Of a stretch of DNA of 64,000 bases, positions 26,844 to 63,999 are shown piece after piece; position 1 is the stretch's first letter; every line of letters begins with the position of its first letter. The stretch lies in the NCBI RefSeq assembly GCF_036346855.1, contig NZ_CP107841.1, forward strand, positions 9,118,001-9,182,000, in the 5' to 3' direction. Position numbers and translations under genes: made by a program. The notes beneath the pieces are model-generated. The model was not told the origin of the DNA. It was given only the letters and a program-made list of their open reading frames with translations, and did no database searches. The DNA is from Streptomyces europaeiscabiei (GTDB lineage Bacteria > Actinomycetota > Actinomycetes > Streptomycetales > Streptomycetaceae).

Positions 26844-27159
26844 AAGTCGGCCCGCAACCGAGCGGATCAACCACGCCCGGGTGTCTGAGAAGCCTTCCGT
26901 TCACCGTTCGACAGGCTTGAGCAGTCGTACACGGTTCCTGTTCGGGTGCCCTCTCGGCAGCCGGGACATAACTGCAGGGCCTACGGGTGGCTCGGGGGGT
27001 TGCGATCCCAACCGAGCAGCGTCAGGAGGTGCACTGTCGGAGCTCTTCGTGCTCGTCTACGGAGTTCAACGCGCCGGATATGCTGTTCCATCACTTTGCC
27101 GACGGATGCATCCGTCACGTCGACGTCTACTGCAAAGCAGAAGGTGGGTCACGGTGCTG
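26844..27159. other. Non-coding stretch
   Basis: No intact gene. A short + frame near 27060-27130 (FHHFADGCIRHVDVYCK) resembles the end of a SnoaL/NTF2-like protein but is too short to call. Confidence 0.4.
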
Positions 27160-27740
27160 CCCGGCCCGGTCGTGATCGCTCCTCCCAGCTCGTGCCGTCG
27201 TCGGAGACGTTCGTGGTGCAGAAGGTTTTCGATCTTCCAGTTGCCCTCTGATCCAGTTGGCGAGCTGGGCGCCGGTAACCGCGCCGGGTGGCAGGCTGGT
27301 GATCAGATAGACGCGCTCGATGGTGAGCTTGCGGGTGGTGACGTCCTTCCTCCAGCGCACGACTTGCAGGGCCTGGTGTGCGTCGGGGCAGTCGAGGTGG
27401 GCGATGGCGGCGGTCTTCAGCCGTCGGATCTCCAGGCGGTGGTGGGCCCGGGTGCGGTCGTAGTGGTCGAGCGTGATCTCGCGCCAGGGCAGGTGGCGGA
27501 CGCGGTTGAAGAGACCGGATGGTTGGCCTTGACCTGGGCGATGTGGTGGGCACCGTGCTTGCGGAGGTAGGTGCCGTGAGCGTGCTGGGTGTGCAGCGCG
27601 TCGGCGGTGATGACGGTGCCGGTCAGGTCGACGCTGTCCAGCAGGGGCCGGAAGGCGGGGATCTCGTTGCTCTTGTCGGCGACCTGGCCCTGGGCCAGGA
27701 CGTAACCGGTGTGCCCGCCATCGGCAACTGACCCGCCTGC
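27160..27740 (-). pseudogene. ISAs1-family transposase remnant
   Basis: The minus strand carries recognisable ISAs1 blocks: LLDSVDLTGTVITADALHTQ, AQVKANHP, then after a frameshift near 27515 FNRVRHLPWREITLDHYDR, and RVYLITSLPPGAVTGAQLANW. A further shift near 27240 leads to WKIENLLHHER. The N-terminal third is missing and the C-terminus fades out, so this is a decayed, truncated copy. No terminal repeats were found. Confidence 0.75.
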
Positions 27741-27826
27741 GGCCCAGAGCGGTCCCCTCCCCGGTGTATGGGAAGCGACCCTTGGCCCGATGATCCCCTC
27801 GCATCCCGCTCGTCCCGTGGGGTCCC

Positions 27827-28318
27827 TCACTCGTCGGCTTGGGGAGTGAGCACCACCACTGGGATCTCGCGTTCGGTCCATGTCTGGTACAGCTCGAAGT
27901 CGGCGTAGACCTCCAACAGCAGGGGCCAGAGACGAGAGCGTTCCTGCGGATCCGCGGTGCGGGCGCGAACAGGTCTCCGCTCGGCGCGGATCTGTATGTG
28001 GGTGTCCGGGTGGGAGCGCAGGTTGCGATACCACTGAGGGTTTTTGGGGAGCCCGCCTTGGGAGGCCACGACCACCGTGTCCGGTCCGTCGGTCATGTAG
28101 AGCAGCGGCGTGGTGTAGAGCCTGCCGGACTTACGACCACGATGATCCAGGAGCAGGACAGGCACAGGCTTGCGGAAGCCGGCGGCCATGCGCCACGTCC
28201 CGCCGACCCGGCCGCGGGTACGGCGGTAGGCCCACACCTGGACCTTGGCCATGTACTTGAAGAGTCTCGGCAGTAGGGGGGAGTCCAGTTGCTTGGGACG
28301 TGGACGCTGATGTGACAC
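27827..28318 (-). CDS. Deazaflavin (F420)-dependent nitroreductase-family protein
   Basis: 163 aa from GTG 28318, with GGAGG six bases upstream; a longer TTG start has no site. The motif KNPQWYRNLRSHP and the preceding LLLDHRGRKSGRLYTTPL are characteristic of the Ddn-like split beta-barrel family, which uses F420H2 to reduce nitro compounds, quinones or other substrates. Specific substrate unknown. It lies between an IS remnant and the PPOX protein on the same strand. Confidence 0.85.
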   Translation of the reverse strand: MSHQRPRPKQLDSPLLPRLFKYMAKVQVWAYRRTRGRVGGTWRMAAGFRKPVPVLLLDHRGRKSGRLYTTPLLYMTDGPDTVVVASQGGLPKNPQWYRNLRSHPDTHIQIRAERRPVRARTADPQERSRLWPLLLEVYADFELYQTWTEREIPVVVLTPQADE

Positions 28319-30499: not shown

Positions 30500-30520
30500 G
30501 GGTGTACTGGCAGTACACCC
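30500..30520. promoter_or_regulatory. 21-bp palindrome, candidate MmyB-regulator operator
   Basis: GGGTGTACT-GGC-AGTACACCC is a perfect inverted repeat around a 3-base centre, 33 bases before the regulator start. A related copy lies at 57241-57261, before an SDR gene. Identity between the two loci extends to 39 of 50 positions. Confidence 0.7.
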
Positions 30521-30552
30521 CAACCTGTCGGACTCGGTCGTACCGTCGTGTC

Positions 30553-31455
30553 GTGGACAACCGTGACGAAGTCCGCGAGTTCTTGACCTCGCGGCGAGCC
30601 AAGATCACCCCGGAGCAGGCGGGGCTGCCGGCCGGCACCCGGCGCCGCGTGCCCGGGCTGCGCAGGAGCGAGGTCGCGGCGCTGGCGGACGTCAGCGTCG
30701 AGTACTACGCCAAGCTGGAGCGCGGAAACCTCGCCGGCGTCTCACCCGCCGTGCTCGAAGCCGTCGCCCGCGCCCTCCAGCTGGATGACGCCGAACGGGC
30801 CCACCTGCTCCATCTGGCTCAGGCCCAGGAAGGCTCCGACACTCTCGCCCGTCCCCGACGGCGCTCCGGCAGGCAGCGGACCTTGCACAAGAGCCTCCAG
30901 TGGACCCTGGACGCCGTCACGGCCGGGCCGGCGTTCGTCGTCAACGGCCGCCTGGACGTGCTGGCCACCAACCAGCTCGCCCGCGCCTTCTTCAGCGACC
31001 TCTGCGACGGCGGCACGCAGCCGCCGAACCTGGCCCGCTACCAGTTCCTCGACCCTGCGGCCCGCCGCTTCTATCCCGACTGGGACCGGGCCGCCGGCAT
31101 GACCGTGGACCTGCTGCGCACCGAGGCCGGCAGCAATCCGCGCGACAAGGACCTGCACGATCTCATCGGTGAGCTGTCCACCCGCAGTGACGCCTTCCGT
31201 ATCCGCTGGGGCACCCACAACGTGACCCACCACGGCACCGGCTCCAAACGCTTCCACCACCCCGTCGTCGGCGACCTCACCCTCTCCTGGGAGTCCCTGG
31301 TCATGGCCGCCGAACCGGGCCTCAGCCTGATCATCTACACCGCCGAACCCGGCTCACCTTCCCAAGAAGCCCTGCACCTGCTCACTTCCTGGGCCGCCAC
31401 TCAGCAAGCTGCCACCGCCCCCGCTCCACGGTCTCCGGCCACTCCGCCGAATTGA
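30553..31455 (+). CDS. XRE-family regulator with MmyB-like ligand domain
   Basis: 300 aa from GTG 30553 (VDNRDEVREFLTSRRAKITP is the usual N-terminus of this family). The helix-turn-helix (about 25-85: RRVPGLRRSEVAALADVSVEYYAKLERG) is followed by the PAS-like MmyB ligand-binding domain. Such regulators commonly sit next to dehydrogenases or reductases and control them. It is divergent from the zinc alcohol dehydrogenase and convergent with a second, damaged paralogue. Confidence 0.9.
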   Translation: MDNRDEVREFLTSRRAKITPEQAGLPAGTRRRVPGLRRSEVAALADVSVEYYAKLERGNLAGVSPAVLEAVARALQLDDAERAHLLHLAQAQEGSDTLARPRRRSGRQRTLHKSLQWTLDAVTAGPAFVVNGRLDVLATNQLARAFFSDLCDGGTQPPNLARYQFLDPAARRFYPDWDRAAGMTVDLLRTEAGSNPRDKDLHDLIGELSTRSDAFRIRWGTHNVTHHGTGSKRFHHPVVGDLTLSWESLVMAAEPGLSLIIYTAEPGSPSQEALHLLTSWAATQQAATAPAPRSPATPPN

Positions 31456-31527: not shown

Positions 31528-32337
31528 TCACCGAGGGTGCCGGGCCGCCTCTGCGTCCGGGGGCGGGGTCGCTGTCCAGCTGGCGAGGAGTTTGAGCCGG
31601 TCTTCGGAGGTGGTGCCGGGCTCGGCGGTGTAGAAGGTCAGGTCGTGGACGGTCCGGTGGGGCATGGGCAGGTCCAGGGACCGGTAGGCCAGCTCCAGGC
31701 GGCCGACCTCGGGGTGGTCCAGGCGCTTGGTGCCGTCGTGGCGGATACGGACGTCGTGTGCCGCCCACATGGTGCGGAACTCGGCGCTGAGCGTGGACAG
31801 TTCGCCGACGAGTGGGCGCAGATCCCGGTCGTAGGGGTCACGCCCGGCCTCGGCCCGCAGCAGGGCCGCGGTGGTGACGGCGGCGGCGTCCCAGTCGACG
31901 TAGAAGTCGAGGGCACCGTCGTCCAGGAAGATGTAGCGGGCGATGTTGGGGCGGCCGTGCTTGTCGGCGGTGGTGCTGTCGAACATCGGCGCGTGCACGG
32001 CCCGCGCCAGGGCGTTGCTCGCGATCACGTCCATGCGGCCGTTGCGCACGAAGGCCGACGACATCGTCGTGGAGTCGAGCACCCACTGAACGGACGGCGG
32101 AACCTGCACGTCCTTGCGGCGGCGCGGCGGGCGGGGCACCGGCCGCGATGCCCGGGCCAGGTCGAACAGATAGGTGCGCTCGTCCTCGTCCAGCCGCAAC
32201 GCCTGGGCGACCGCGTCGATGACGTCCTCGGAGACGCCGCTGATGTGGCCCTTCTCCAGGCGCGTGTACCACTCGGTGCTCACTCCGGCGAGGACGGCGA
32301 CCTCCTCGCGGCGTAGACCCGGAACCCGGCGCCTGTG
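31528..32337 (-). pseudogene. MmyB-type XRE regulator, N-terminus replaced by IS701 sequence
   Basis: The region encodes RRRVPGLRREEVAVLAGVSTEWYTRLEKGHISG and a full MmyB-like ligand domain, paralogous to the gene at 30553. The usual first ~30 residues (the DNREEVREFL..TPEQAGLP part) are missing. The frame instead runs without a stop into the C-terminal sequence of an IS701 transposase (QYEVRRYVGWYRH). The N-terminal helix and native promoter are therefore lost. It could be expressed only as a fusion or from an internal start, so I call it a truncated gene. Confidence 0.8.
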
Positions 32338-32470
32338 CCGATACCAGCCCACGTAGCGGCGGACCTCGTACTGATCCAGTCCGCACTCGTTCTTCGCGGC
32401 CTGGAAGTACCTCGATTGCCCAGCGTGCCCCGGCGACCCGCACCAGGTCCTGGACGGTGACCTGAAGGGG
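32338..32470 (-). pseudogene. IS701-family transposase, C-terminal fragment
   Basis: Reading leftward, YAPLQVTVQDLVRVAGARW and AIE are followed after a 2-base deletion by YFQAAKNECGLDQYEVRRY, VGWYRH. This is the C-terminal core of IS701 transposases. It directly continues the fragment at 38219 once the IS256 element and one target duplication are removed (YYLAYA joins PLQVTV in frame). The element end is lost at the junction with the regulator. Confidence 0.85.
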
Positions 32471-32478
32471 GGCGTAGG
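32471..32478. repeat. Left 8-bp target duplication of the IS256 element
   Basis: GGCGTAGG here and at 38211-38218 flank the element exactly. An 8-bp duplication is the known size for the IS256 family. Confidence 0.85.
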
Positions 32479-32509
32479 GATGGCGCCCCGTGGAGTGGTG
32501 TAACGGATC
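32479..32509 (+). repeat. IS256 left terminal inverted repeat
   Basis: Pairs imperfectly (about 22 of 31) with the complement of 38180-38210; strongest over TGG-GTGGTGTA-C-GATC. Confidence 0.75.
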
Positions 32510-32638
32510 TTGGCTGGGAAGTGCGCCGTTTCCGTGCCCTCGCGTGCATCGACTGCCGGTGAACGCTCCCTGAGAACGGGGCAGGCCACCGTGCAACTGT
32601 CCTTGGTGAACTGCCAGTTCGGTCCAAGGGGGTGCCCG

Positions 32639-33406
32639 GTGGCCATGTCCCAGCATGACCTACTTCGCCTGCTTGAGTCACTACGTTCTGCAGACGGTCT
32701 TGAACTCGTCCGCGAGGTCGCTGAACGGCTGCTGCAGGAACTGATCGAGGCCGAGGCCACTGCCCGGATCGGTGCGGAGTGGGGCGAGAGGACCGACACT
32801 CGCACCACCTGGCGCAACGGGCACCGGGAGAAGACCGTGACCACGCAGGCCGGCGACCTGGAGCTCGCGATCCCGAAACTGCGGGCCGGCAGTTTCTTCC
32901 CGAGCCTGCTCGAGCGTCGGCGCCGGATCGACCAGGCCCTCTACGCGGTCATCATGGAGGCATACGTCCACGGCGTCTCCACCCGCTCGGTCGACGACCT
33001 GGTCAAAGCCCTCGGCTCGGACACCGGCATATCGAAGAGCGAGGTCTCCCGGATCTGCGCGGACCTCGATGAACAACTCGACGCGTTCCGCGCCCGGCCG
33101 CTGGATCACATCCGCTTCCCCTATGTCTATCTCGATGCCACCTACGTCAAGGCGCGGGTGAACCATCAGATCGTCTCCCAGGCCGTCGTCATCGCCACCG
33201 GCGTCACCGAGGACGGCGGCCGTGAGGTCCTGGGCGTCATGGTCGGCGACAGCGAAACCGAAGCGTTCTGGACCGAGTTCCTGCGCTCGTTACGGGAACG
33301 CGGCCTGACCGGTGTCCGTCTCGTCATCTCCGACAGCCACAGCGGTTTGGTCAAGGCCATCCGCAAGGTCATGCTCGGCGCCCCTGGCAGCGCTGTCGTG
33401 TCCACT
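32639..33406 (+). pseudogene. IS256-family (mutator) transposase, first part
   Basis: Starts at GTG 32639 or ATG 32645. About 250 residues match the mutator-type transposase: RNGHREKTVTTQAGDLELAI, PKLRAGSFFPSLL, the first catalytic Asp in YVYLDATYVKARV and the second in VISDSHSGLVKAI. One C is missing at about 33384 (MLGAP should continue WQRCRVH), shifting the frame 20 bases before the ISAzo13 insertion point. The remainder resumes at 37731. Confidence 0.88.
33404..33406. repeat. Left 3-bp flanking duplication of the ISAzo13 element
   Basis: ACT precedes the left inverted repeat and is repeated at 37731-37733. Deleting the element with one copy restores the IS256 codons for R-V-H-F-V-R. Confidence 0.75.
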
Positions 33407-33460
33407 GAAGCCGTCAAGAATCAACCTGTTGCTTCGCGGTCAGCGGCTCGTTGGCCTGGT

Positions 33461-34444
33461 ATGGCGATCACGGAGGAGTTGCTGTCCCAACTCGACCACC
33501 GTTTCGCGGTGTTGCTGCCGCATCTGAACGAGCGTCAGCGGCGTCTGATGTTGGCGCAGGAGGCGCGACTGCTCGGACACGGTGGGGTACGGGCCGTGGC
33601 GCGGCTGGCCGGAGTGAGCGAGACCACGGTCCGCAGCGGTGTGTTCGAGCTGGAGGCCGGTGAGGATCCGCTGCGGGACGGCTGTGTCCGGCGCCCCGGG
33701 GGTGGCCGCAAGTTGGCCGAGGAACAGGATCCTTGCCTGGTTCCGGCGTTGCTGAAGCTGGTGGAGCCGGACGAACGGGGCGATCCGATGTCACCGCTGC
33801 GCTGGACCACCAAGTCCCTGCGCAACCTCGCCGAGGAGCTGACCAGGCAGGGACACCCGATCTCCGCCCCGACGGTCGGTCGGCTGCTGAGAGAGCAGGG
33901 TTTCAGTCTGCAGACCAGCGCCAAGACGCTGGAGGGCAAGCAACACCCCGACCGGGACGCACAGTTCCGCTACATCAACGAACAGGTCAAAGAGCACCAG
34001 TCCGGCGGTCAGCCGGTGATCAGTATCGATGCCAAGAAGAAGGAGCAGATAGGACAGCTGCCGAACCCCGGGCGGCAATGGCGCCCCGCAGGCGATCCGG
34101 TGCAGGTCGAAGACCACAGCTTCTACTTCATCGGCCCCGACGTCGACGTGGCGATACCCTTCGGCATCTACGATCTGGCCCACGACAGCGGCTGGGTGAA
34201 CGTCGGTACCGATCACGACACCTCGGTGTTCGCCGTCGAGTCGATCCGCCGCTGGTGGCGGGCCCGTGGCCGGGTGGACCACCCGGATGCCGACAGGTTG
34301 TTGATAACCGCGGACTGCGGAGGGTCCAACAGCTACCGCTACCGGTTGTGGAAGGCCGAACTCGCCGCGTCCGCCGCCCAGACGGGTCTCACGGTGAGCG
34401 TCTGTCACTTTCCGCCGGGCACTTCGAAATGGAACAAAATCGAG
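33461..34444 (+). CDS. ISAzo13-family transposase, exon 1
   Basis: 328 codons from ATG 33461. It contains an N-terminal helix-turn-helix region (HLNERQRRLMLAQEARLLG, VRAVARLAGVSETTVRSG, about 20-60), then the DDE fold: VISIDAKKKEQIG (first Asp, about 190), LLITADCGGSNSYRYRLW (second Asp, about 290) and finally KWNKIE, where the Glu is probably the third catalytic residue. The exon ends exactly after that Glu codon, and the sequence continues at 36610 with HRLFSH, in the same frame. Translation without splicing would run into intron sequence and stop at 34573. Confidence 0.88.
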
Positions 34445-35047
34445 GTGCGCCACGAGGCGTCACTGTTACCGGGCAGGGGTGAAAGAACCCTGCCGCCGGG
34501 CTGTCGCAGCAGCCCGGTGAAGCTGAGGGCAGCCGATCCGTGGAGACGCACGGAGAGGTGGGAGCAGCCCTGACAACGACGGAGCGCGTCGGTACTTCCA
34601 GACGGCGCGTGTCCGGCAAGCAAGACGAGACGCCGTACGAGAGGAACCAGTGCCTGACGTCCCGTAAGTGTTCCACCGGCTCCAATCTGGAGGATATGGG
34701 CCGGGTGCAGCGCACGCCGCCTTCTCGTGGGCGGCGACTTCGAAGCCGGTCTTTCGATGCTGGTGAGGAGGCCACGCTGAATGCCTGCGGCGTAGGTGTG
34801 GCGATGCTGTCGGGGTAGAGCTGGGCGGCTCACTCGTCGACCGGAGAGTGGTGAACGTGGGAAGCGTGCTGGAGGCGCCCTTCCCGGCTGACATCCAGTC
34901 AGCCGGTGGGCAGGCCCGTTGTCGGCCGACGGCTCCAGGACGTGGCGGAGGCCCCGTAGTAGTCCGAGCGCACGAGAGGTGCGCACATGGCGAAGGGGGC
35001 CAGCAAGTCAGTGGCCGAAGTACTGGAAGACCAGGAGGTTTTCGCCG

Positions 35048-36478
35048 GTGAATACCGACGAACTTGAGGCCGTCACGTATGTGGCGGAGCGACGGGTACT
35101 GGAGATCCAGACCAAGCTGCACCGTTGGGCCCGTGATGATCCTCATCGCAGGTTCGAGGATCTGTTCAACCTTGTCGCCGATCCCGCGTTCCTGCTGGTC
35201 GCGTGGGATCGGGTGCGGGGCAACAGGGGTGCGAAGACCGCCGGGGTGGATGGCCGTACTGCGGCCTCCATCGTGGAGCGGACGGGCGTCGAGGAGTTCC
35301 TCGGCGGGCTGCGGGACAGCATCAAGGACCGTAGTTTCCGTCCGCTGCCGGTGCGGGAGCGGATGATCCCCAAGCCGGGGGGCAAGTTGCGCCGGCTGGG
35401 GATCGCCACGATCGCGGACCGGGTGGTGCAGGCATCCCTGAAGCTGGTGCTGGAGCCGATCTTCGAGACGGATTTCCTCCCGTGCTCCTACGGGTTCCGT
35501 CCGAACCGCCGGGCTCATGACGCGGTGGCCGAGGTGCGCTTCTTCACGTCCAAGTCATATGAGTGGATCGTGGAGGGTGACATCAAAGCCTGCTTCGACG
35601 AGATTTCACACTCCGCTCTGATGGATCGGGTGCGCAATCGCGTCGGGGACAACCGCGTCCTGGCCATGGTGAAGGCGTTCTTGAAGTCGGGCATCCTCGG
35701 GGAGGATCGCCTGCTTCGGGAGACCACCGCCGGTACCCCACAGGGTTCGATTCTCTCGCCGTTGATGAGCAACGTGGCGCTGTCGGTCCTGGACGAGTAC
35801 ATCGCCCAGTCACCGGGAGGGCCGGGGTCCACGCCCTGGGCGAGGGCCAAGCGGCGTCGTCAAGGTCTCCCCAACTACCGGCTTTCCAGGTACGCGGACG
35901 ACTGGTGCCTGATGGTCTCCGGCACCAAGGACGACGCCGAAGCTCTGCGCGAGGAGATCGCGGAGGTGTTGTCCACGATGGGTTTGCGCCTGTCCGTGGA
36001 GAAGACTTTGATCACCCATATCGACGAGGGGCTGGACTTCCTCGGGTGGCACATCCAGCGCCACCGCAAACGGGGCTCCAGCCGCAGCTACGTCTACACC
36101 TATCCCTCGCGCAAGGCCCTCAAGGCCGCGATGGACAAGGTCAAGACGATCCGCCGCGGAACAGCCACCGGCCTGCCGCTGGACGAACTGCTCATCCAGA
36201 TCAACAAGATGCTGTTCGGCTGGTGCATGTACTTCCGCCCCGGGGTGTCCAGCGCGACCTTCCAGTACCTCAGCTCGTACACATGGAGCCAGGTCATGAA
36301 ATGGCTGCGCCGCAAACACCACCGGATCAACAGGAAGGACCTCCGCCGCCGCTACTGCGGTGGAGGTTGGTGGCCATCAGGAGAGGAACGGACATTGTTC
36401 GATCCCGGCAAAGTGCGCACCACGCGCTACCGATACCGGGGAACGGTCATCCCTTCACCCTGGCCGACCACCGGATGA
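35048..36478 (+). CDS. Group II intron-encoded reverse transcriptase/maturase
   Basis: 476 aa from GTG 35048 with AGGAGG nine bases upstream. The RT blocks are intact: RVRGNRGAKTAGVDG, RPLPVRERMIPKPGGKLRRL, GFRPNRRAHDAV, EGDIKACFDEI, GTPQGSILSPLMSNVAL and the catalytic YADD at residues 282-285. The maturase (domain X) region follows, ending near FGWCMYFRPG. I see no H-N-H endonuclease pattern at the C-terminus, so the protein probably lacks the DNA endonuclease domain and would rely on other priming. It supports splicing and mobility of the intron. Confidence 0.93.
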   Translation: MNTDELEAVTYVAERRVLEIQTKLHRWARDDPHRRFEDLFNLVADPAFLLVAWDRVRGNRGAKTAGVDGRTAASIVERTGVEEFLGGLRDSIKDRSFRPLPVRERMIPKPGGKLRRLGIATIADRVVQASLKLVLEPIFETDFLPCSYGFRPNRRAHDAVAEVRFFTSKSYEWIVEGDIKACFDEISHSALMDRVRNRVGDNRVLAMVKAFLKSGILGEDRLLRETTAGTPQGSILSPLMSNVALSVLDEYIAQSPGGPGSTPWARAKRRRQGLPNYRLSRYADDWCLMVSGTKDDAEALREEIAEVLSTMGLRLSVEKTLITHIDEGLDFLGWHIQRHRKRGSSRSYVYTYPSRKALKAAMDKVKTIRRGTATGLPLDELLIQINKMLFGWCMYFRPGVSSATFQYLSSYTWSQVMKWLRRKHHRINRKDLRRRYCGGGWWPSGEERTLFDPGKVRTTRYRYRGTVIPSPWPTTG

Positions 36479-36511
36479 AGACAACTGTCCATGGTTGAAC
36501 GGGACTTGTGG

Positions 36512-36547
36512 AGCGCCCGGTGCCGTGAGAGCGGCACGCCGGGTGCG
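36512..36547 (+). ncRNA. Group II intron domain V
   Basis: The hairpin begins with the catalytic triad AGC (36512-36514). It has a lower stem of 8 bp (36513-36520 with 36539-36546), a 2-base bulge CG (36537-36538) on the 3' side, an upper stem TGCCG/CGGCA and a GAGA tetraloop closed by a T-G pair. This is the diagnostic layout. Domain VI should occupy the roughly 60 bases that follow. Confidence 0.88.
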
Positions 36548-36609
36548 GGAAGCGGCTCCGGGGAAACGGCTCGATCGAAAGACGAGACCGCGCCCCGGGC
36601 CGACTTCAC

Positions 36610-37716
36610 CACCGGCTGTTCTCCCACATCTCCATGAACTGGCGTGGCAGGCCCCTGACCAGCCACGAAGTCGTGGTCAACAGCATCGCCGCGACCCGCA
36701 CCCGCACCCGCACCGGCCTGCGCGTTCACGCCGAGTTGGACACCGGGTCCTACCCGGTGGGAATCTCCGTCAGCCGCGAGCACCTGCGCTCACTGCCGAT
36801 CACACACCATGACCGGCACGGATCCTGGAACTACACGATCGCCCCGGTCAACACCACCGGCGACTGCGCGATCAACACCAGCGATCGCGACCACACCAGG
36901 TCACAGGTCCTGGCGATGCTCGCCGACCCGCGTCTGAGCGGCATGACCTCACCCGAACTGGACGCACTGTGCGCCCAGTTGGCTCCCGCGCAGGCCGCCC
37001 AGGCCGAACAGCGCAAGTTCCAGCAGCGCGGCGGCCGACGCCTGCAGGCCCCCGGAGCACACGGCAAACCCCTGCTCTCGAACGCCGACCGCACCCTCAT
37101 CACCGTGATCTACCTGCGCCGCGTCTGCTCCCAGAAGGTTCTGGTCGACCTGCTCGCCATCAACCCGGTCACCATCGGCAAGGCCATCGGCGAGACGCGC
37201 CCACTCATGGACGCCCAGAAGATCACCGTCTCGCAGACCGCGCACTACTTCTCCTCCGCCCAGGAACTGCACGACTGGGCGCAGGACGGCGCGACCACCA
37301 GCCGAATGGATCTCTCCCAGACTCTGTCCCACCCCACCCTCACCGGCATGCCCCGCCCGGACTTCCAGGCGCTGATCGACCGGATCACCGTGCCCTACCA
37401 GGCCGCGCTCGAACGACGCCGGCATCACCAGCGCGGCGGCGCCCGGCGTCCGGGAACCCGTGGCGGCGTCTTCCGCCAAAAGATCACTGACGCGGACCGG
37501 ATCCTGGCGACGGTCCTCTCGCAGCGAGATCTATGCAACCAGCAGACCCTGGCCGACTTGTTCGGTGTCAGCCGCGGCACCATCCGTAACGCCATCGAGG
37601 ATGTCCGTCCCCTCCTCGAACAAGACCCGTACGTCCCGATGCCCGCCGAACGACGCTTCGCCACGGCCGCCGACGTACTCGCATCCGTCACAGAAGACAG
37701 GGAAACACCATGTTGA
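36610..37716 (+). CDS. ISAzo13-family transposase, exon 2 with duplicated C-terminal domain
   Basis: 368 residues continuing exon 1. The first part (HRLFSHISMNWRGRPLTSHE to HDRHGSWNYTIAP) completes the DDE transposase. It is followed by about 280 extra residues containing two related units, 36937-37218 and 37342-37627. Each runs from (S/T)GM..P(E/D) through a QQRGG-type basic stretch to a helix-turn-helix pattern (TIGKAIGETRPLMD versus TIRNAIEDVRPLLE). The family normally ends near the first part, so the tail is an accessory, probably DNA-binding, addition. Confidence 0.85.
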   Translation, partial: HRLFSHISMNWRGRPLTSHEVVVNSIAATRTRTRTGLRVHAELDTGSYPVGISVSREHLRSLPITHHDRHGSWNYTIAPVNTTGDCAINTSDRDHTRSQVLAMLADPRLSGMTSPELDALCAQLAPAQAAQAEQRKFQQRGGRRLQAPGAHGKPLLSNADRTLITVIYLRRVCSQKVLVDLLAINPVTIGKAIGETRPLMDAQKITVSQTAHYFSSAQELHDWAQDGATTSRMDLSQTLSHPTLTGMPRPDFQALIDRITVPYQAALERRRHHQRGGARRPGTRGGVFRQKITDADRILATVLSQRDLCNQQTLADLFGVSRGTIRNAIEDVRPLLEQDPYVPMPAERRFATAADVLASVTEDRETPC

Positions 37717-37730
37717 ATCCTTACGGCTTC
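37712..37730 (-). repeat. ISAzo13 right terminal inverted repeat
   Basis: Complement reads GAAGCCGTAAGGATTCAAC, matching the left end at 16 of 19 positions. It overlaps the transposase stop codon. Confidence 0.8.
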
Positions 37731-38181
37731 ACTTCGTGCGAAACGTCTTCTCGGTGATCCCGAAGGGAGCCGCGGAGATGGTCGCCGCGACGATCCGCAC
37801 GCTCTTCGCCCAGCCCACCGCCGAATCGGTCCGGGTCCACCTCGACACCGTCGCGGACATGCTCGGCGAGCAGTTCCCCAAGGTCAAAGAGATGCTTCTC
37901 GACGGGAAGGAAGACCTGACCGCGTTCGCGGACTTCCCCCACCAGCACTGGAAGAAGATCCAGTCAACCAACCCACTCGAGCGACTGAACCGGGAGATCA
38001 AGCGCCGTTCCGACGTCGTCCAGGTCTTCCCGAACACCGGCGCCGTCGACCGGCTCGCCACCGCCGTCCTCGTCGAACTCCACGACGAGTGGATCGCCTT
38101 CCCCCGCCGCTACTCTCCATCGAGAGCATGGACAGCCTCTATCCGGACAACACCACCTGCCTGCCCGGCACCGCCGACTGA
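37731..38181 (+). pseudogene. IS256-family transposase, second part
   Basis: Continues the IS256 gene: HFVRNVFSVIPKGAAEMVAAT, FPHQHWKKIQSTNPLERLNR, EIKRRSDVVQVFPNTGAV, ELHDEWIAFPRRY. A 1-base deletion near 38118 shifts the expected tail (SIESMDSLYPDNTTCLPGTAD, then TGA at 38179-38181) into another frame. The catalytic Glu region normally precedes NPLERLNRE. This part cannot be translated from the IS256 start because of the insertion and the upstream shift. Confidence 0.85.
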
Positions 38182-38210
38182 TCAGCTACACCACGCCAAG
38201 GGACACAACC
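38180..38210 (-). repeat. IS256 right terminal inverted repeat
   Basis: Complementary to 32479-32509 with about 9 mismatches; overlaps the transposase stop by two bases. Confidence 0.75.
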
Positions 38211-38218
38211 GGCGTAGG
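38211..38218. repeat. Right 8-bp target duplication of the IS256 element
   Basis: GGCGTAGG, identical to 32471-32478; the outer sequence is the IS701 transposase on both sides. Confidence 0.85.
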
Positions 38219-38835
38219 CGAGGTAGTAGGCGATCTCGTCGGGCTTGCTGATGCTGCGCCGGGCCAGTGCCCACCGCATCCGGTGAGGGACCTCGCCCTG
38301 ATAGTCGAACTCGGCGACGGCCGGCAGCCGCACCGCTGCCCAGTGGTAGACGCGGGGCCCCTTCGCGCCGTCGCCGCAGGAGATTTTCTCCCATGCCTCG
38401 TCCGGGGCCTGCGCGAATAGGCCCTCGATCCGTGAACAGCTCACGCTGAACTGGGACTTGGGGACGGCCAGTACGTAGCCGACACCCGACTGCTCCAGCA
38501 GCCGGCGGAACCGGTTTTCCTGACCGTAGGCGGAATCCGCGGTGACCCAGGCAATGGGCAGCGGCGAGGCCAGGGCCCGCAGCACCATGTGCCGTGCCAG
38601 TTCACCTTTGGTGGCGAACTCCCGCTCGTCGGGGACCCTTGCGGTGCGGCAGCGTTCCCGGTCTTCCGTCCAGGACTTCGGGAGGTAGAGCTCGCGGTCG
38701 ACCAGAGCCCGGCCACGGGCGGAGGCGTAGGCGGCGAAGACGCCGATCTGGCAATTCTCGGTCCGGTCGGCGGTTCCGGAGTACTGATGCTGGACCCCGG
38801 CGGAGGTGTTGCCCTTCTTTCCCGTTCGCCTGAAA
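38219..38835 (-). pseudogene. IS701-family transposase, N-terminal/central fragment
   Basis: About 200 residues of an IS701 transposase: KKGNTSAGVQHQYSGTADRT, ENCQIGVFAAYASARGRALV, AWVTADSAYGQENRFRRLLE and KPDEIAYYLAYA. The gene stops being recognisable upstream of about 38835 (the usual first ~100 residues are absent) and is cut at 38218 by the IS256 target duplication. Its C-terminal continuation lies at 32338-32470. It is thus the oldest identifiable layer of the nest. Confidence 0.87.
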
Positions 38836-58151: not shown

Positions 58152-58898
58152 TCAGCGCTGCCGCTCCAGGGTGAGGACGGCGGCGGAGATTGACGACATT
58201 CGATTTGGGCTGCGTCGTGCCCTGCGGAAGATCCGCTACGACTTGAGCCGTGCGACGCCGCGCTCGACCGGTGCCCGTGCCGCGGGCAGCGCTCCGTTGA
58301 CGGTCTGCTGGGTTGGCGTGAGGTCACGGCCCGGCGGGCGTCTGAGGGGCGTTGTCACCCACGGGCCAGCTCCCATGTAGGCGCGGTCGGCGAGGACCGG
58401 GACGCCCTGGCGTTCGCAGATCCGGATGATCTGGTGGGTGCGGGCCGCGGTCAGGTCGTGCGCGCGGCCGGGCAATGCGGGCGAGATCCACAGCAGCCGG
58501 CCATCCGGATCGGTCATGTCGGCGGTGCTTGGCAGAGTAGTCGGCCCGGCCGTCGCCCAGCGGTCGTACTCCGCGAGAGTGGCGTCGAGCAGGACGTAGT
58601 CGGGATCGGTCTCGCGCACCACCTTGAGCAGGCCCGGTGCACGGTCGGCGAGCGGGCTGATCACCGAGGTGGTGTAAGCGTGAGCGGTGCCCACCGAGAT
58701 ACCGAAGCCGACGGCGATCTGGGCAAGCGTGTCGTGCTTACGCAAGTACGTCAGGGCGACGAGCGCACGCTGGTGCGGCGGGAGTTTGCATCGTCGGTCA
58801 CCCTCGCGGGTGACGATGAGCATGGTGACCCAGTCGATCAGGGCGTGGGGCAGGTCGAGTGCGGCAGAATAGGGTCCCAACGCTGGCTCCTGTGCCAA
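58152..58898 (-). pseudogene. IS5-family (DDE_Tnp_4 type) transposase with a nonsense mutation
   Basis: The frame from ATG 58898 reads 220 residues: an N-terminal helix-turn-helix ([20 protein letters not shown], about 57-76), a DDE core ([38 protein letters not shown]) and [10 protein letters not shown]. It then meets TAG at 58236. The same frame continues [20 protein letters not shown] to a natural stop at 58152, so a Trp codon (TGG) has probably become TAG. The gene is otherwise full length. Loss of the last 28 residues may inactivate it. Confidence 0.8.
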
Positions 58899-58908
58899 TG
58901 CCGCGGAG

Positions 58909-60240
58909 TTAAGGCTTTCCTCCGCAGGTCAACCCGCTTTCTGCCAGTGGTTTTAGCGCGTCGGGCAAGAAGGTGTAGGCCCCTCTGCGGGTTCTGGTGA
59001 TCCGCCCGTTCCGTGCCCAGCGGCTCAGTTGGGTGGCGAAGACGTTGGGGTTGGCAATGCCGAGTGCTGGTGCGATCCCCCCGGCGGTCCAGGAGTGTTC
59101 CGGCGCGGATTGCAGGACAGCGAGAGTGCCTTCGAACCGGGAAAGGGCCGGGTCGACACGGGGAGGTACCGGCGGCGGCGACAGGGCGGCCAGATCCTCG
59201 ATCAGGGTGTAGGTGCCTCTGCCGACCTTGGCGAAGTGTCCCTGGCTGGCCCAGCGGGAAAGCAGCACACGGTAGCTGTTGATGTTGTTCACGGCCAGGG
59301 CGTGCGCGAGGTCGGTGGCGTTCCAGCAGCGCCCTGGCTGGGAGTGCAGGAACCCCATGGTGCGGTCGATGAGGGGTGGCAGCTGCGGAGCGCGCGCGTG
59401 CGGCGCAGCGGGAGGGAAGGGGTGACGGCGGGAGACGAAAGCAGGCGTGGTTGGTTGAACGGCGTGGACGCTGATGGTGATGGATGCGATCTTCGTGCTG
59501 TTCATGGGGCGTCCGTCGTCGGTTCTGGCATAACGCGGCATGGGAGATTTGACCTTGCCGGAGCTGATTCGCGGGCGGCGGGCGGGCAGGAGATTGGCCA
59601 GGACAGCCTGACCGATCCGGCCGACGAGACCGGCGTCCTCGTCAAGGACGCCCTGGGCGGCCACGACCTGGTCGCGGGCCGCTTCCTGGGCGATGGTGAA
59701 GCTGGCCCGGTCCAAGTCGGTGCCAGGCACGGACTCGACGGCGTCGACCATGGCGGTGCGCAGGAGCTGGTAGAGGGTGAGCTGGGCCCACAATTCCTGT
59801 TCGACACCCCTCGGGTCGGTGGAGCGCGGCACCCTGCCCTGCATCAGCGTGTGGCGCAGAGCGTAGTAGGCGGACTCGATCTCCCAGCGCTCGTGATGCA
59901 GGTGGACAAGGGTGCCGGAGGGGTCTTGTCCGGGGTCCAGCAACGTGGTCACCAGCCGGTATCCGTCGTGCAGGCGGGTGCCGCCGGTGCAGGTCGCGGC
60001 CATGTCGGCCTCGATGATCCGCACCTGCACCGAGCGGATACTGGACAGGTAGGAGCCGTCGGATAACCGCTGGGTGGTGGGCAGACGGCGCTTGGAGGTG
60101 AGGCGGACCAGGAACTGGGCACCGGTGCCGGCGAACTCGGCCAGCTGCTTGCCATTGTCGAAGCCGCGGTCGGCCAACACCAGCGACTGCGGGCCGAGCA
60201 GGTGCATCAACTGCCGCGCGTAGCGGGCCTCCCCGTGGAA
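58909..60240 (-). pseudogene. IS4-family transposase, 5'-truncated, with C-terminal winged-helix-like repeats
   Basis: Reading leftward from about 60240: GEARYARQLMHLLGPQSLVL, ADRGFDNGK (second catalytic Asp), LHHERWEIESAYYALRHTLM (position of the catalytic Glu region) and QLTLYQLLRTAMVDAV. The N-terminal half with the first Asp is missing. A C-terminal extension of about 160 residues carries two similar units, GRCWNATDLAHALAVNNINS..LSRWASQGHFAKVGRGTY and HSWTAGGIAPALGIANPN..LSRWARNGRITRTRRGAY, both resembling small winged helices. The 5' end abuts an IS701 fragment on the other strand. Confidence 0.8.
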
Positions 60241-60871
60241 CGTGGGGCCAAACGCCGCTCCGAGCAGGCAGCCGATGCCCGCCTGGGCGGCTACGGCCCC
60301 GACTCACCCTGCCGCCTGGTCGTGGCCACCACTGATCCGGCTGCCCTGCCGGAGAAGGCCACCTGGTACCTGGCCACCAACCTGCCCCACCCCGAGGCAC
60401 CCCACGCCGCCACCAGCCCGCACCCGCCCGCCGACCTGGCCGAGATCGTGCGCCTCTACGGCCTGCGGCCCTGGATCGAGCAGAGCTACAAGCAAATCAA
60501 GGACGAACTGGGCTGGGCCGACTTCCAAGTCCGCTCCGACCGCGCCATCCGCCGCCACCAGACCCTGGTCAACTGCGCCTTCTCCTTCTGCCGGGATCAA
60601 TGGTTCACCCCACCCGGCCCCCTGGACGCCACCGCGCCGGACCCCTGCTCCGACCGACGAGGGACCAGAGAGAGGGGGACCAGCCCCGTCCCACCGGCCC
60701 CAACAGCCTTGCTAGCCCAGGGCCTTACGCGACATCCCCTCCTGGCTCACCCCCGCCGTCCCCCTCAACCGATGGTGGCGAGCCTGGACGGACAGGACCC
60801 CACCACCCTCCGAGCTCCAAGCCCTGATCGACGCCGTCAGCACCGGACACGCGATTGACCTCTACCGCTGA
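60241..60871 (+). pseudogene. IS701-family transposase, C-terminal fragment
   Basis: The + strand encodes CRLVVATTDPAALPEKATWY, LATNLPHPEAP, AEIVRLYGLRPWIEQSYKQI, KDELGWADFQVRSDRAIRRH and then, after a frameshift near 60700, RALRDIPSWLTPAVPLNRWW and AIDLYR with the stop at 60869-60871. The 5' half is missing. This IS701 relative belongs to a different subgroup from the one split at 32-38 kb. Confidence 0.8.
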
Positions 60872-62061: not shown

Positions 62062-62457
62062 CAGTCCTCGCAGGAGATAAGGAGGGAAGCGGGCCGAAAC
62101 TCAAGCTGGCTGGGGAGGCGCTGGACGGGGACTTTGGCGGAAACGCCCTGGCCATACCAGCGGTTAGATCTGACATTAAACTGAGTGACAGACAACCTAA
62201 TTGCCTGACAGATCGCGGTCAAGGATGAGGTCAGCAAGCCCACCGCCGCAGTTGACAGCGGTCCTCGCAGGACTCCCCGTGGCCGCAGCGCTCGCCGCCT
62301 CGGCTGCCCTGCAACCGCTACTACCTACCTTGCTGGCGTGATGTCGTTTAGTAGGACTCCGTTAAGTGGGGTCTGTACGGTGAGCGGCCCTGTCTCACAT
62401 TCGGTGGTGAGGGAGAGTTGGGTCGTTGACCTTCATGCGATAGGTGTCAACGAGCTT
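62062..62457. other. Non-coding stretch
   Basis: Upstream region of the Gfo/Idh/MocA gene, locally AT-richer (about 62160-62210), then the presumed 5' end of the ISL3 element. No gene recognised; no clear inverted repeat found. Confidence 0.45.
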
Positions 62458-63999
62458 GTGCAGACGGTGTTCTCGGGTCTGTCCCCACTGGTCATGGGGG
62501 ATGTGGTCGACGAGGGTGAGCGGATCGTGGTGCGGGCCCGGACACCGCGGTCTGCCCGGTGTGCGGGGCCTCGTCGGGACGGGTGCACGGCTATCACTGG
62601 CGGACGGTGGTCGACGTTCCGGGCGACGGGCGACGGGCGACGGGCGACGGGCGACGGGCGGCGGGCGACGGGCGACGGGTGGTGGTCCGTGTGCGGGTGC
62701 GGCGTCTGGTGTGTCCCACGCGAGGCTGCCGCCACACTTTCCACGAACAGGTGCCCGGGTGCTGGAGCGATACCAGGACGCACCGCTCGTCTGACCAGGC
62801 AGGTCAAGGCCGTGATCAAAGAGCAAGCGGGCCGGGCGGGATCACGTTTGCTGGCGATACTCGCGGTGGGCCTGTCCCGTCACACGGCCCTGCGCACCCT
62901 GCTGCGCATCCCGTTGCCCACGGGCGTGTGCCCCGCGTGATCGGCGTCGACGATTTCGCCCTGCGCCGGCGGCACCGCTATGCCACCGTGGTGATCGACG
63001 CCGAGACCCATGAACGGATCGACGTGCTGCCCGACCGCACGGCCGACACGCTGGAAGCGTGGCTGCGCCGGCATCCGGGCATCGAGGTCGTGTGCCGCGA
63101 CGGCTCAGCCACCTACGCCGAGGCCATCCGCCGTGCTCTGCCTGACGTGGTGCAAGTCGGTGATCGCTGGCATTTATGGAAGAACCTGTGCGAAGCCGCC
63201 CTGAGCGAGGTGCAGGCACACAGTGCCTGCTGGGCCACCGTACGGGACGCGCCGATCTACGACGGGCCCCGCGCTCAGACCACCCTCGAACGCCGGCATC
63301 AGGTTCATGGCCTGCTCGACCAGGGCGTGGGCCTGCTCGAATGCGCCCGCCGCCTGCAACTGGCCCTGAACACCGTCAAACGCTACGCCCGAGCCGACCG
63401 GCCCGAGCGCATGCTCCGCGTCCCCAAGTACCGTGCCAGCCTGGTCGATCCCTACCGCGAGCACCTGCGCAAGCGCCCAAGTGAAGACCCCGGCGTCCCC
63501 GTCCAGCACCTCTTCGAAGAGATCAAGACCCTCGGCTTCACAGGCTGCCTGAACCTTCTGCACAAGTACATCAACCAAGGCCGCGCGGACGCCGACCACA
63601 GCCATATCTCGCCACGTCGGCTCGCCCGGATGCTGCTGACCAGACCCGACAACCTCAAGCCCGAGCAGCACGAACTCCTGGCCAAGCTCACCGCCGCCTG
63701 CCCCGAAATGACCCAACTGGCCACAGGTATCAGAGACTTCGCCCCGCTCTGTACGCCACACACCGACAATGCCGATGCGCTCACGCACTGGATCGCCCAG
63801 CCCGAACAGCCGACCTGCCCCACCTACACGCCTTCACCCGGGGCCTGGACCGGGACATCGACGCCGTGATCGCCGGGCTCACGCTTCCGTAAGCGACGGC
63901 CCCACCGAGGGCGTCAACGCCAAGACCAAACGGATCGCGCGCCAGATGCACGGACGAGCAGGCTTCACCCTGCTCCGGCACCGCATCCTCCTCGGATAA
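62458..63999 (+). pseudogene. ISL3-family transposase with multiple frameshifts
   Basis: All parts of an ISL3 transposase are present in order but in different frames: VQTVFSGLSPLVMGDVVDEG, a zinc-finger region (VCGASSGRVHGYHW), LVCPTRGCRHTFHEQVPG, RLTRQVKAVIKEQAGRAGSR, then a long intact stretch RVPRVIGVDDFALRRRHRYA, CRDGSATYAEAIRRALPDVV, QVGDRWHLWKNL to about 63800, and the tail EGVNAKTKRIARQMHGRAGF up to the TAA at 63997. One-base changes are inferred near 62550, 62760, 62925 and 63810. A 7-base repeat array is embedded at 62622-62677. Confidence 0.85.
62622..62677 (+). repeat. Heptanucleotide tandem array within the ISL3 transposase gene
   Basis: Eight copies of GGCGACG (the sixth reads GGCGGCG). 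Relatives of this transposase have a short GDGRR-like segment here. Six additional units (42 bases) would add 14 residues without shifting the frame, consistent with replication slippage. Confidence 0.85.

Follow-up and report, generated by a model that had tools for sequence, protein, structure and literature searches.

We describe a stack of four mobile elements in a stretch of 64,000 nucleotides from Streptomyces europaeiscabiei (assembly GCF_036346855.1, contig NZ_CP107841.1, positions 9,118,001 to 9,182,000 of the forward strand), referred to below as the window, in which a group II intron lies within an ISAzo13-family insertion sequence (IS), the ISAzo13-family IS within an IS256-family IS, and the latter within the remnant of an IS701 element. 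The nested structure is real, and we consider it likely that its two inner elements, the ISAzo13-family IS and the intron, are in place by target recognition. As far as sequence comparison goes, this conclusion is carried by four results: a single insertion point of ISAzo13-family relatives across divergent IS256 hosts, a core and spacing shared with four sites outside IS256 genes, a short and different target of sister elements whose transposase has one rather than two C-terminal helix-turn-helix (HTH) repeats, and movement of the ISAzo13 element and its intron as a pair. In the following, L and G numbers are our handles for loci and genomes.

The nest and its junctions

The original prediction, made from the letters of the window, proposed four layers and placed every junction, and all of them were found where it put them to within a few bases. 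The IS701 gene is split by the IS256-family IS at 32479-38210, with the direct repeat GGCGTAGG at both sides; the IS256 element is split by the ISAzo13-family IS at 33407-37730, with ACT repeats and 19-bp terminal repeats matching at 16 of 19 positions; and the ISAzo13 transposase is split by the intron at 34445-36609, the 3' end of which matches Rfam RF00029. Empty sites were sought in related sequences and found for all three junctions, in each case within the same genome. Three IS701 copies run uninterrupted through the GGCGTAGG site and align in one piece over it (78.6% across 752 bp; the alignment of L003 has no gap near the junction), an IS256 relative (L010) runs through the ACT site, and ISAzo13 copies L006-L008 are contiguous exactly at 34444/36610. 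The features of the nest are as follows.

32471..32478, unstranded: left copy of the IS256 target site duplication (TSD), GGCGTAGG; read from the sequence, and IS701 copies of the same genome continue here
32479..33406, + strand: left part of the IS256 element, N-terminal portion of the transposase, frameshifted just before the target motif (PF00872, 5e-87; NF033543; end-to-end relatives)
33385..33403, + strand: putative target core, TGGCAG followed by 13 nt, coding W-Q-R-C-R-V-H with the next base (spacing shared with other sites)
33404..33406, unstranded: left copy of the ISAzo13 TSD, ACT (sequence; empty site in L010)
33407..33425, + strand: left terminal inverted repeat of ISAzo13 (16/19 match to the right end)
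33461..34444, + strand: ISAzo13 transposase exon 1, 328 aa, last codon Glu GAG (PF07592, 6.5e-108)
34439..34444, + strand: intron-binding site 1 (IBS1), ATCGAG, pairing with exon-binding site 1 (EBS1)
34445..36609, + strand: group II intron, 2,165 nt, GTGCG...AC (intronless copies L006-L008; intron relatives)
34753..34758, + strand: EBS1, TTCGAT, by pairing with IBS1
34919..36478, + strand: reverse transcriptase/maturase, given as the longest open frame, with the true start probably further downstream (PF00078, PF08388; TIGR04416 above cut-off)
36511..36609, + strand: intron 3' domains V/VI (Rfam RF00029, 46.7 bits)
36610..37716, + strand: ISAzo13 transposase exon 2, end of the DDE domain and C-terminal extension with two HTH repeats (PF07592, 7e-26)
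about 36880-37305, + strand: HTH repeat 1 (33% identity between repeats; AlphaFold2 model of a relative)
about 37306-37713, + strand: HTH repeat 2 (33% identity between repeats; AlphaFold2 model of a relative)
37712..37730, - strand: right terminal inverted repeat of ISAzo13 (match to the left end)
37731..37733, unstranded: right copy of the ISAzo13 TSD, ACT (sequence)
37731..38210, + strand: right part of the IS256 element (end-to-end relatives)
38211..38218, unstranded: right copy of the IS256 TSD, GGCGTAGG (sequence)

Removal of each layer had been expected to rejoin the gene below it. Taking out the intron leaves the ISAzo13 transposase open across both exons. Taking out the ISAzo13 element restores W-Q-R-C-R-V-H-F-V-R-N locally, but the IS256 transposase carries a one-base frameshift just before this motif; taking out the IS256 element makes the IS701 gene continuous, as in the three copies that align through the site, but what is rejoined is only a remnant. 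The residual lengths suit the two families, and the doubt raised in advance, that the excised elements might fail to align end to end with relatives, is answered at both IS levels. Bases 1 to 1400 of the 1,405-bp IS256 align with seven uninterrupted relatives (L198, L200-203, L205 and L209; 84.6-89.7%), the other six of the 13 other-genome loci compared being partial or interrupted, and the 2,159 bp of ISAzo13 without its intron align end to end with the intronless L183 and L221 at 89-90%.

Family assignments follow from the same material. The ISAzo13 element has PF07592 in both exons together with terminal inverted repeats (16/19) and a short TSD (ACT), and the model NF033519 scores above cut-off for relatives P0001 and L175 (for P0001 580 bits against a cut-off of 200, covering residues 16-401 of 697). 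The IS256 layer has the Transposase_mut domain, a match to the IS256 model and an 8-bp TSD, and its frame is broken by the one-base shift before WQRCR, which is missing in the seven uninterrupted relatives and in L206 and present in L010; it is evidently a decayed family member. The intron has the 5' GUGYG, the catalytic domain V, the 3' AY and the open reading frame (ORF) of a reverse transcriptase/maturase that define group II introns.

Target sites of the ISAzo13 lineage

Relatives of the ISAzo13 element were collected from several sources. A search of 392 same-genus genomes with the right part of the element gave L107-L136, of which 12 were examined (L117 and L120-L136 being left aside). 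A terminal-repeat pattern run over 392 genomes, ignoring the flanks, found 31 ends in 14 genomes, and the reversed control pattern found zero ends in 392 genomes. Among the 30 ends fetched, 19 adjoin an IS256 motif, one is unclear, and three (G224) and seven more (with GGGCCC-/GGGTCC-type ends) do not. Elements were fetched in 29 stretches, with L173 and L191 empty, L194 and L195 fragments, and L140 (G197) unclear. From a plasmid set of 127 records, 30 were listed and 12, selected for variety, were opened; seven hold the element in IS256, one elsewhere (L224), two in IS6-like genes, and two could not be classified (L231, L232). A class-wide sample matched at E 1e-25 in 5 of 394 genomes, our own included, and its five other-genome loci comprise four in IS256 and the unclassified L235.

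Pooling gives 36 classified loci, one-repeat elements excluded, and 28 of these lie within IS256-family transposase genes, 20 confirmed by Pfam and eight assigned by motif only (L185 via its end L148, L192, L221, L223, L234, L236, L237 and L239); eight lie elsewhere. The carriers of the IS256-inserted relatives are Streptomyces, Rhodococcus, Nonomuraea and other actinobacteria. Within the IS256 genes the insertion point is one place, directly after a Q-x-C-x-x-H motif, and both orientations occur, so that 28 of the 36 loci share one insertion point in one target. All 20 flank pieces that were submitted to Pfam, on the strength of their IS256-like look, matched PF00872, and 19 of them adjoin profile position 256/257 within one residue, L226 being out of frame. 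Of the IS256 loci, 14 have both ends tabulated, and 13 of these are flanked by equal 3-bp duplications, the remaining one (L174) being off by one. In genome G141 three different IS256 genes each hold a copy, and these copies are identical (0 differences in 2,174 bp); the inserts of G230 lie in different IS256 types. These comparisons indicate that the placement of ISAzo13 elements in IS256 is not due to chance landing.

The same kind of comparison one layer further out served as a control. Of 24 relatives of the IS256 element, 17 could be followed to their actual left end, and their 300-nt left flanks are mutually dissimilar, none of them being IS701, so no common insertion site was seen. Site specificity of IS256 in IS701 was accordingly rejected as a candidate explanation for the outer junction, in agreement with the random appearance of IS256 insertions described in the accessible part of PMC3942029. 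Since these flanks share nothing, the method does not detect specificity everywhere.

When 17 of the IS256 sites are aligned on the duplicated triplet, their common pattern is C..g..C......gCAg.g.TGC.g..tcC, corresponding to the codons of Q-x-C-x-x-H; the motif common to the sites is thus this one and not W-Q-R-C-x-x-H as in the window. CAG stands at the place of the core in 14 of the 17 sites and CAA in two, with L174 shifted by one base. Outside IS256, three two-repeat elements of G224 (L170, L171 and L172) lie in three different genes for ABC-transporter ATPases (PF00005), at one common place just behind SGGQWQ. All three of these sites have TGGCAG 13 nt ahead of the duplication, and so does that of L224, an element of Rhodococcus opacus B4 whose flank has no Pfam hit. 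We had entertained the view that the elements in ABC genes form a wholly different target class and dropped it, as some of the IS256 sites also have TGGCAG at the 13-nt spacing. We infer that the transposase recognises a CAG-containing core.

A candidate for the reader of this core is the C-terminal extension. ISAzo13 transposases of this lineage are about 700 aa long, and the part beyond the NF033519 region holds two repeats, which in the window are 33% identical to each other. An AlphaFold2 model of P0001 (mean predicted local distance difference test score, pLDDT, 71) predicts that each repeat forms an HTH of three helices (block pLDDT mostly 82-93), and in a Foldseek search the catalytic part of the model resembles Mos1 (best E 1e-4); TFIIB-like matches in that search were weak (E about 0.05) and are not used as evidence. 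Two repeats occur in all 26 elements tested on the window's side (25 classified and L232) and one repeat in all nine sisters tested. In a phylogenetic tree, the one-repeat rows apart from L030 fall into one clade of ten rows (support 99/99), which includes L032 and L181 without a repeat count. The targets of the one-repeat elements, where they could be read, have a TTA/TAA duplication or left flank (L178, L182, L190, L029, L074 and L023-L025 of the same genome as the window), and, judged by motif, no IS256 motif was seen at those read.

Several observations weigh against this account of target and reader. The exact TGGCAG is present in only six of the 17 IS256 sites, and it is absent from L187 and from the IS6-like sites (L193, L227 and L229, judged by eye). 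Because the IS256 motif is conserved in any case, IS256 sites would look alike whatever the transposase reads, and only the ABC sites and L224 are independent tests; the three ABC loci all come from one genome. Eight of the 36 loci are outside IS256, namely three in ABC genes, three in IS6-like genes, one in a TauD dioxygenase gene (L187) and one other (L224), only seven of the 12 opened plasmid records show IS256, and L187 has a near-identical copy in the same genome (L188) that lies in IS256. Related copies among the loci make the number of independent events smaller than 28. With regard to the repeats, L170 shows three repeat places, one repeat being split, the one-repeat L030 sits on a long branch outside the sister clade, and L177, L179, L185 and L192 are partial elements in which repeats are uncountable; it is a correlation, of two repeats with gene-specific sites and of one repeat with TTA/TAA, that points to the repeats as a candidate reader. 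The IS6-like assignments differ in their grounds: one flank of L227 is IS6 by PF13610 and NF033587 and its other flank piece has no hit, and L193 and L229 are IS6-like by eye, the 53-aa flank of L193 having no Pfam hit. L193 and L229 share flank letters and are probably a single event.

As a side observation, at three loci (L183, L189 and L234) the flanks on either side are not parts of a single IS256 gene, being two right halves in opposite orientation or having unlike duplications, which suggests recombination between nested copies.

The intron, the inner pair and the surroundings

The intron occupies the same place in nine other loci (L021, L028, L029, L030, L033, L034, L074, L076 and L102, the last seen on the 3' side only), with L033 and L034 from one genome and L021 a second copy in the genome of the window. 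In ISAzo13 transposases this common site comes right after the codon for Glu in K-W-N-K-[IV]-E-H-R, a residue that we take to be the catalytic Glu of DDE enzymes. Over 38 distinct 5' exons, 89% of EBS1/IBS1 positions are paired and 22 of the 38 exons pair fully, compared with 53.5% for the next best column block and a mean of 39% for all columns; no convincing pairing was found for EBS2/IBS2. By this evidence the intron is site-specific via the predicted EBS1/IBS1 pairing. The introns of L028, L029, L030, L074 and L076 are 92.6-98.6% identical to that of the window, while exon 1 of their hosts shows 66-74% identity where it aligns (in L076 this is just 127 bp). With introns so much more alike than the host exons, the intron must have moved between ISAzo13 lineages, one-repeat hosts included. 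Two further introns (L031, L032) lie at another ISAzo13 site, and more distant ones were found, by reading, in transposase genes of IS3, IS110, IS630, IS5 and IS701 type. The closest named carriers of both the intron and the ISAzo13 element of the window are Streptomyces.

Two side observations concern these insertion sites. One intron relative (L044) lies in an apparent methyltransferase gene rather than in a transposase gene. In G370, all three fetched ISAzo13 copies (L180, L181 and L182), which belong to two subtypes, carry an IS4-like element of about 1.45 kb (family name by eye) with ends CAATGCCGTTGCTTG just upstream of the SKWNKIE motif; it seems to be a second element targeting the same catalytic region as the intron.

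The second copy of the ISAzo13 element with its intron (L021, at 1.28 Mb) bears directly on the history of the nest. Its exon 1 and its intron are identical to those of the window (1038/1038 and 2165/2165), and the sole difference in the remaining sequence is one 6-bp unit. Its host is a different IS256-family gene, 65.6% identical to that of the window, and it is inserted at the homologous base with the TSD ACT. The inner two layers have evidently travelled together, and splicing of the intron is inferred from the movement of the intron-bearing IS. An identical intron in a second copy implies that at least one of the two insertions into IS256 was made by an ISAzo13 element that already contained the intron. 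The original prediction read the containment as a strict order of insertion events, a claim that is not supported: containment is silent on what inserted in situ, and with a second intron-bearing copy present the geometry alone fixes no order of events. Nor does treating the nest as a chance pile-up fit inner layers that appear site-specific.

The outermost layer is incomplete. Homology to IS701 spans 32334 to 38819 only, and a complete IS701 with two ends is not present, the right piece corresponding to positions 94-302 of 363 of the NF033540 profile. Its pieces and the adjoining gene are listed here.

32334..32478, - strand: IS701 remnant, C-terminal coding piece, left TSD included (80% identity to copies L003-L005 of the same genome)
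38219..38819, - strand: middle coding piece of the IS701 remnant, lacking its 5' end (PF13546; NF033540; homology stops at 38819)
31531..32333, - strand: MmyB-like regulator gene, HTH_31 and MLTR_LBD (PF17765, PF13560), 5' end lost at the join to the IS701 remnant

The IS701 remnant is fused in frame, with the joint at 32334, to this regulator gene, which has no start, and a similar gene lies at 30502-31455. As far as they were tested against profiles or read, the neighbouring genes of the window are ordinary metabolic and regulatory genes, and reading of the ORF list gave more transposase-like fragments at 27127-28034, 58236-60858 and 62338-63869.

Explanations, known systems and meaning

The explanation that we prefer is target recognition at both inner levels. 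The IS256-family element would insert freely, here in an IS701 gene. The two-repeat ISAzo13 transposase would recognise a CAG-containing core (TGGCAG in the window) and insert 13 nt downstream in either orientation with a 3-bp duplication, which in practice would mostly mean IS256 genes; this target occurs in many copies, is presumably harmless to the host and is hard for IS256 to change. Through pairing of EBS1 with IBS1 the intron would retrohome to a site just behind the Glu codon in the K-W-N-K-I-E-H-R motif of ISAzo13 transposases, and its splicing would keep the transposase readable, so that ISAzo13 and intron could move as a unit. Each inner layer would thus parasitise the conserved catalytic-core region of the layer below.

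A shared position could also come from selection without recognition, if elements landed anywhere and survived inside other IS. Tolerance of IS inside IS is indeed expected, and according to the accessible part of PMC9208149 IS hotspots serve as target sites, the gene functions found next to them including transposases. Harmlessness, however, would not single out one base in genes of more than 1 kb, still less place 19 of 20 flank pieces at the same PF00872 position in both orientations; the 17 IS256 relatives have no shared sites, and the ABC sites and L224 have the same core without being IS256. We regard selection of this kind as very improbable, and hardly more credit is due to a single ancient insertion of ISAzo13 in IS256, followed by spread and divergence of the compound or by gene conversion between IS256 copies, with no recognition now. 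Similar hosts in the pairs L169/L184, L222/L223 and L193/L229, maybe one event each, are what such a history would leave. It is made unlikely by orientations that vary between loci, by the window and L021, where inserts identical but for 6 bp sit in the 65.6% identical hosts, by the triplet of G141 and the mixed IS256 types of G230, and by the existence of empty relatives of the window's IS256.

Independent insertions in situ, in the strict order IS256, ISAzo13, intron, are allowed by the geometry and the intact junctions, and the window could still be the locus where the intron first entered. The second copy, with its intron the same at 2165 of 2165 positions, contradicts this order at one locus if not at both, and we consider it unlikely. 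A chimeric assembly is barely conceivable: no point in its support was found, and several argue against it. The TSDs of both IS layers are exact, the genome itself offers exact empty sites and a second copy elsewhere, and the contig measures 10.76 Mb in a genome rated 100% complete.

Beyond target recognition in this nest, there is a broader proposal to which we would give slightly less than an even chance. Tandem-HTH ISAzo13 elements may be widespread and form a class of DDE transposons that are guided by protein, specific for sequence and normally at home in transposase genes of other mobile elements. They would read a stretch of about 19 bp that has a CAG core and encodes a motif which IS256 could not readily alter. 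Lineages would have switched to other coding motifs, in the LSGGQ region of ABC transporters or in IS6-family transposases, with the same reader reused or modified, and the intron, homing to the catalytic codon of these elements, would complete a predictable three-layer parasitic chain.

Site-specific IS, introns in IS and IS inside IS are known already, while the literature searched, which left most subscription journals outside its coverage, gave no account of an ISAzo13 lineage with IS256 as its dedicated target; within the same literature ten papers name ISAzo13, and we found no report on its target choice and no paper naming ISRop2. The relative in R. opacus B4 is labelled 'ISAzo13-like element ISRop2 family transposase' in its PLSDB record, and the likeness to this family lies in the NF033519 match of P0001 and the PF07592 core; NF033519 stops at residue 401, and the tandem-HTH extension and the target specificity fall outside the description seen. 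The papers cited here are represented by the parts accessible to us. ISAzo13 prefers actinobacterial genomes according to PMC9208149, which in those parts has nothing on its target. Elements specific for repetitive extragenic palindromic (REP) sequences (ISPsy8, ISPa11, ISPpu9/10, ISRm22 and ISRm19; PMC1525189) likewise have copies at one position of a conserved repeated target, but theirs is an extragenic palindrome and ours a coding motif in transposase genes of other mobile elements. The group II intron RmInt1 is housed in ISRm2011-2, where splicing was proposed to curb the mobility of its host IS (PMC4238363); the present case shares a mobile group II intron in an IS and differs in its ISAzo13-family host, in the site after the DDE-motif Glu codon, and in an intron-bearing IS found in two near-identical copies. 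The survey of prokaryotic Mutator-like elements (IS256, ISLre2, ISKra4 and TnGBS; PMC3942029) covers IS256, the host element of our nest, but there IS256 inserts and here it is the target. In Leifsonia xyli, IS1237 lies inside ISLxc1 and ISLxc2, three times within ISLxc2 (PMC2516522), which resembles our case in that one IS is repeatedly found inside copies of another; the families differ, and the accessible account mentions neither a common target site nor its recognition.

Stacks of IS are commonly taken for accidental pile-ups and used as clocks for the order of insertion. With two of the three insertions in this nest apparently site-specific and the inner two layers travelling together, geometry alone gives no strict history, and the stack would for the most part be predictable, not random. 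In this lineage there is a natural set of compact DDE transposases that differ in target (IS256, ABC, IS6 and short TTA/TAA), together with a candidate reader domain, by which the choice of a long target by an IS transposase can be put to a direct test. Hyperparasitism may also hold IS256 elements in check, since loss of the motif would hardly spare the IS256 transposase.

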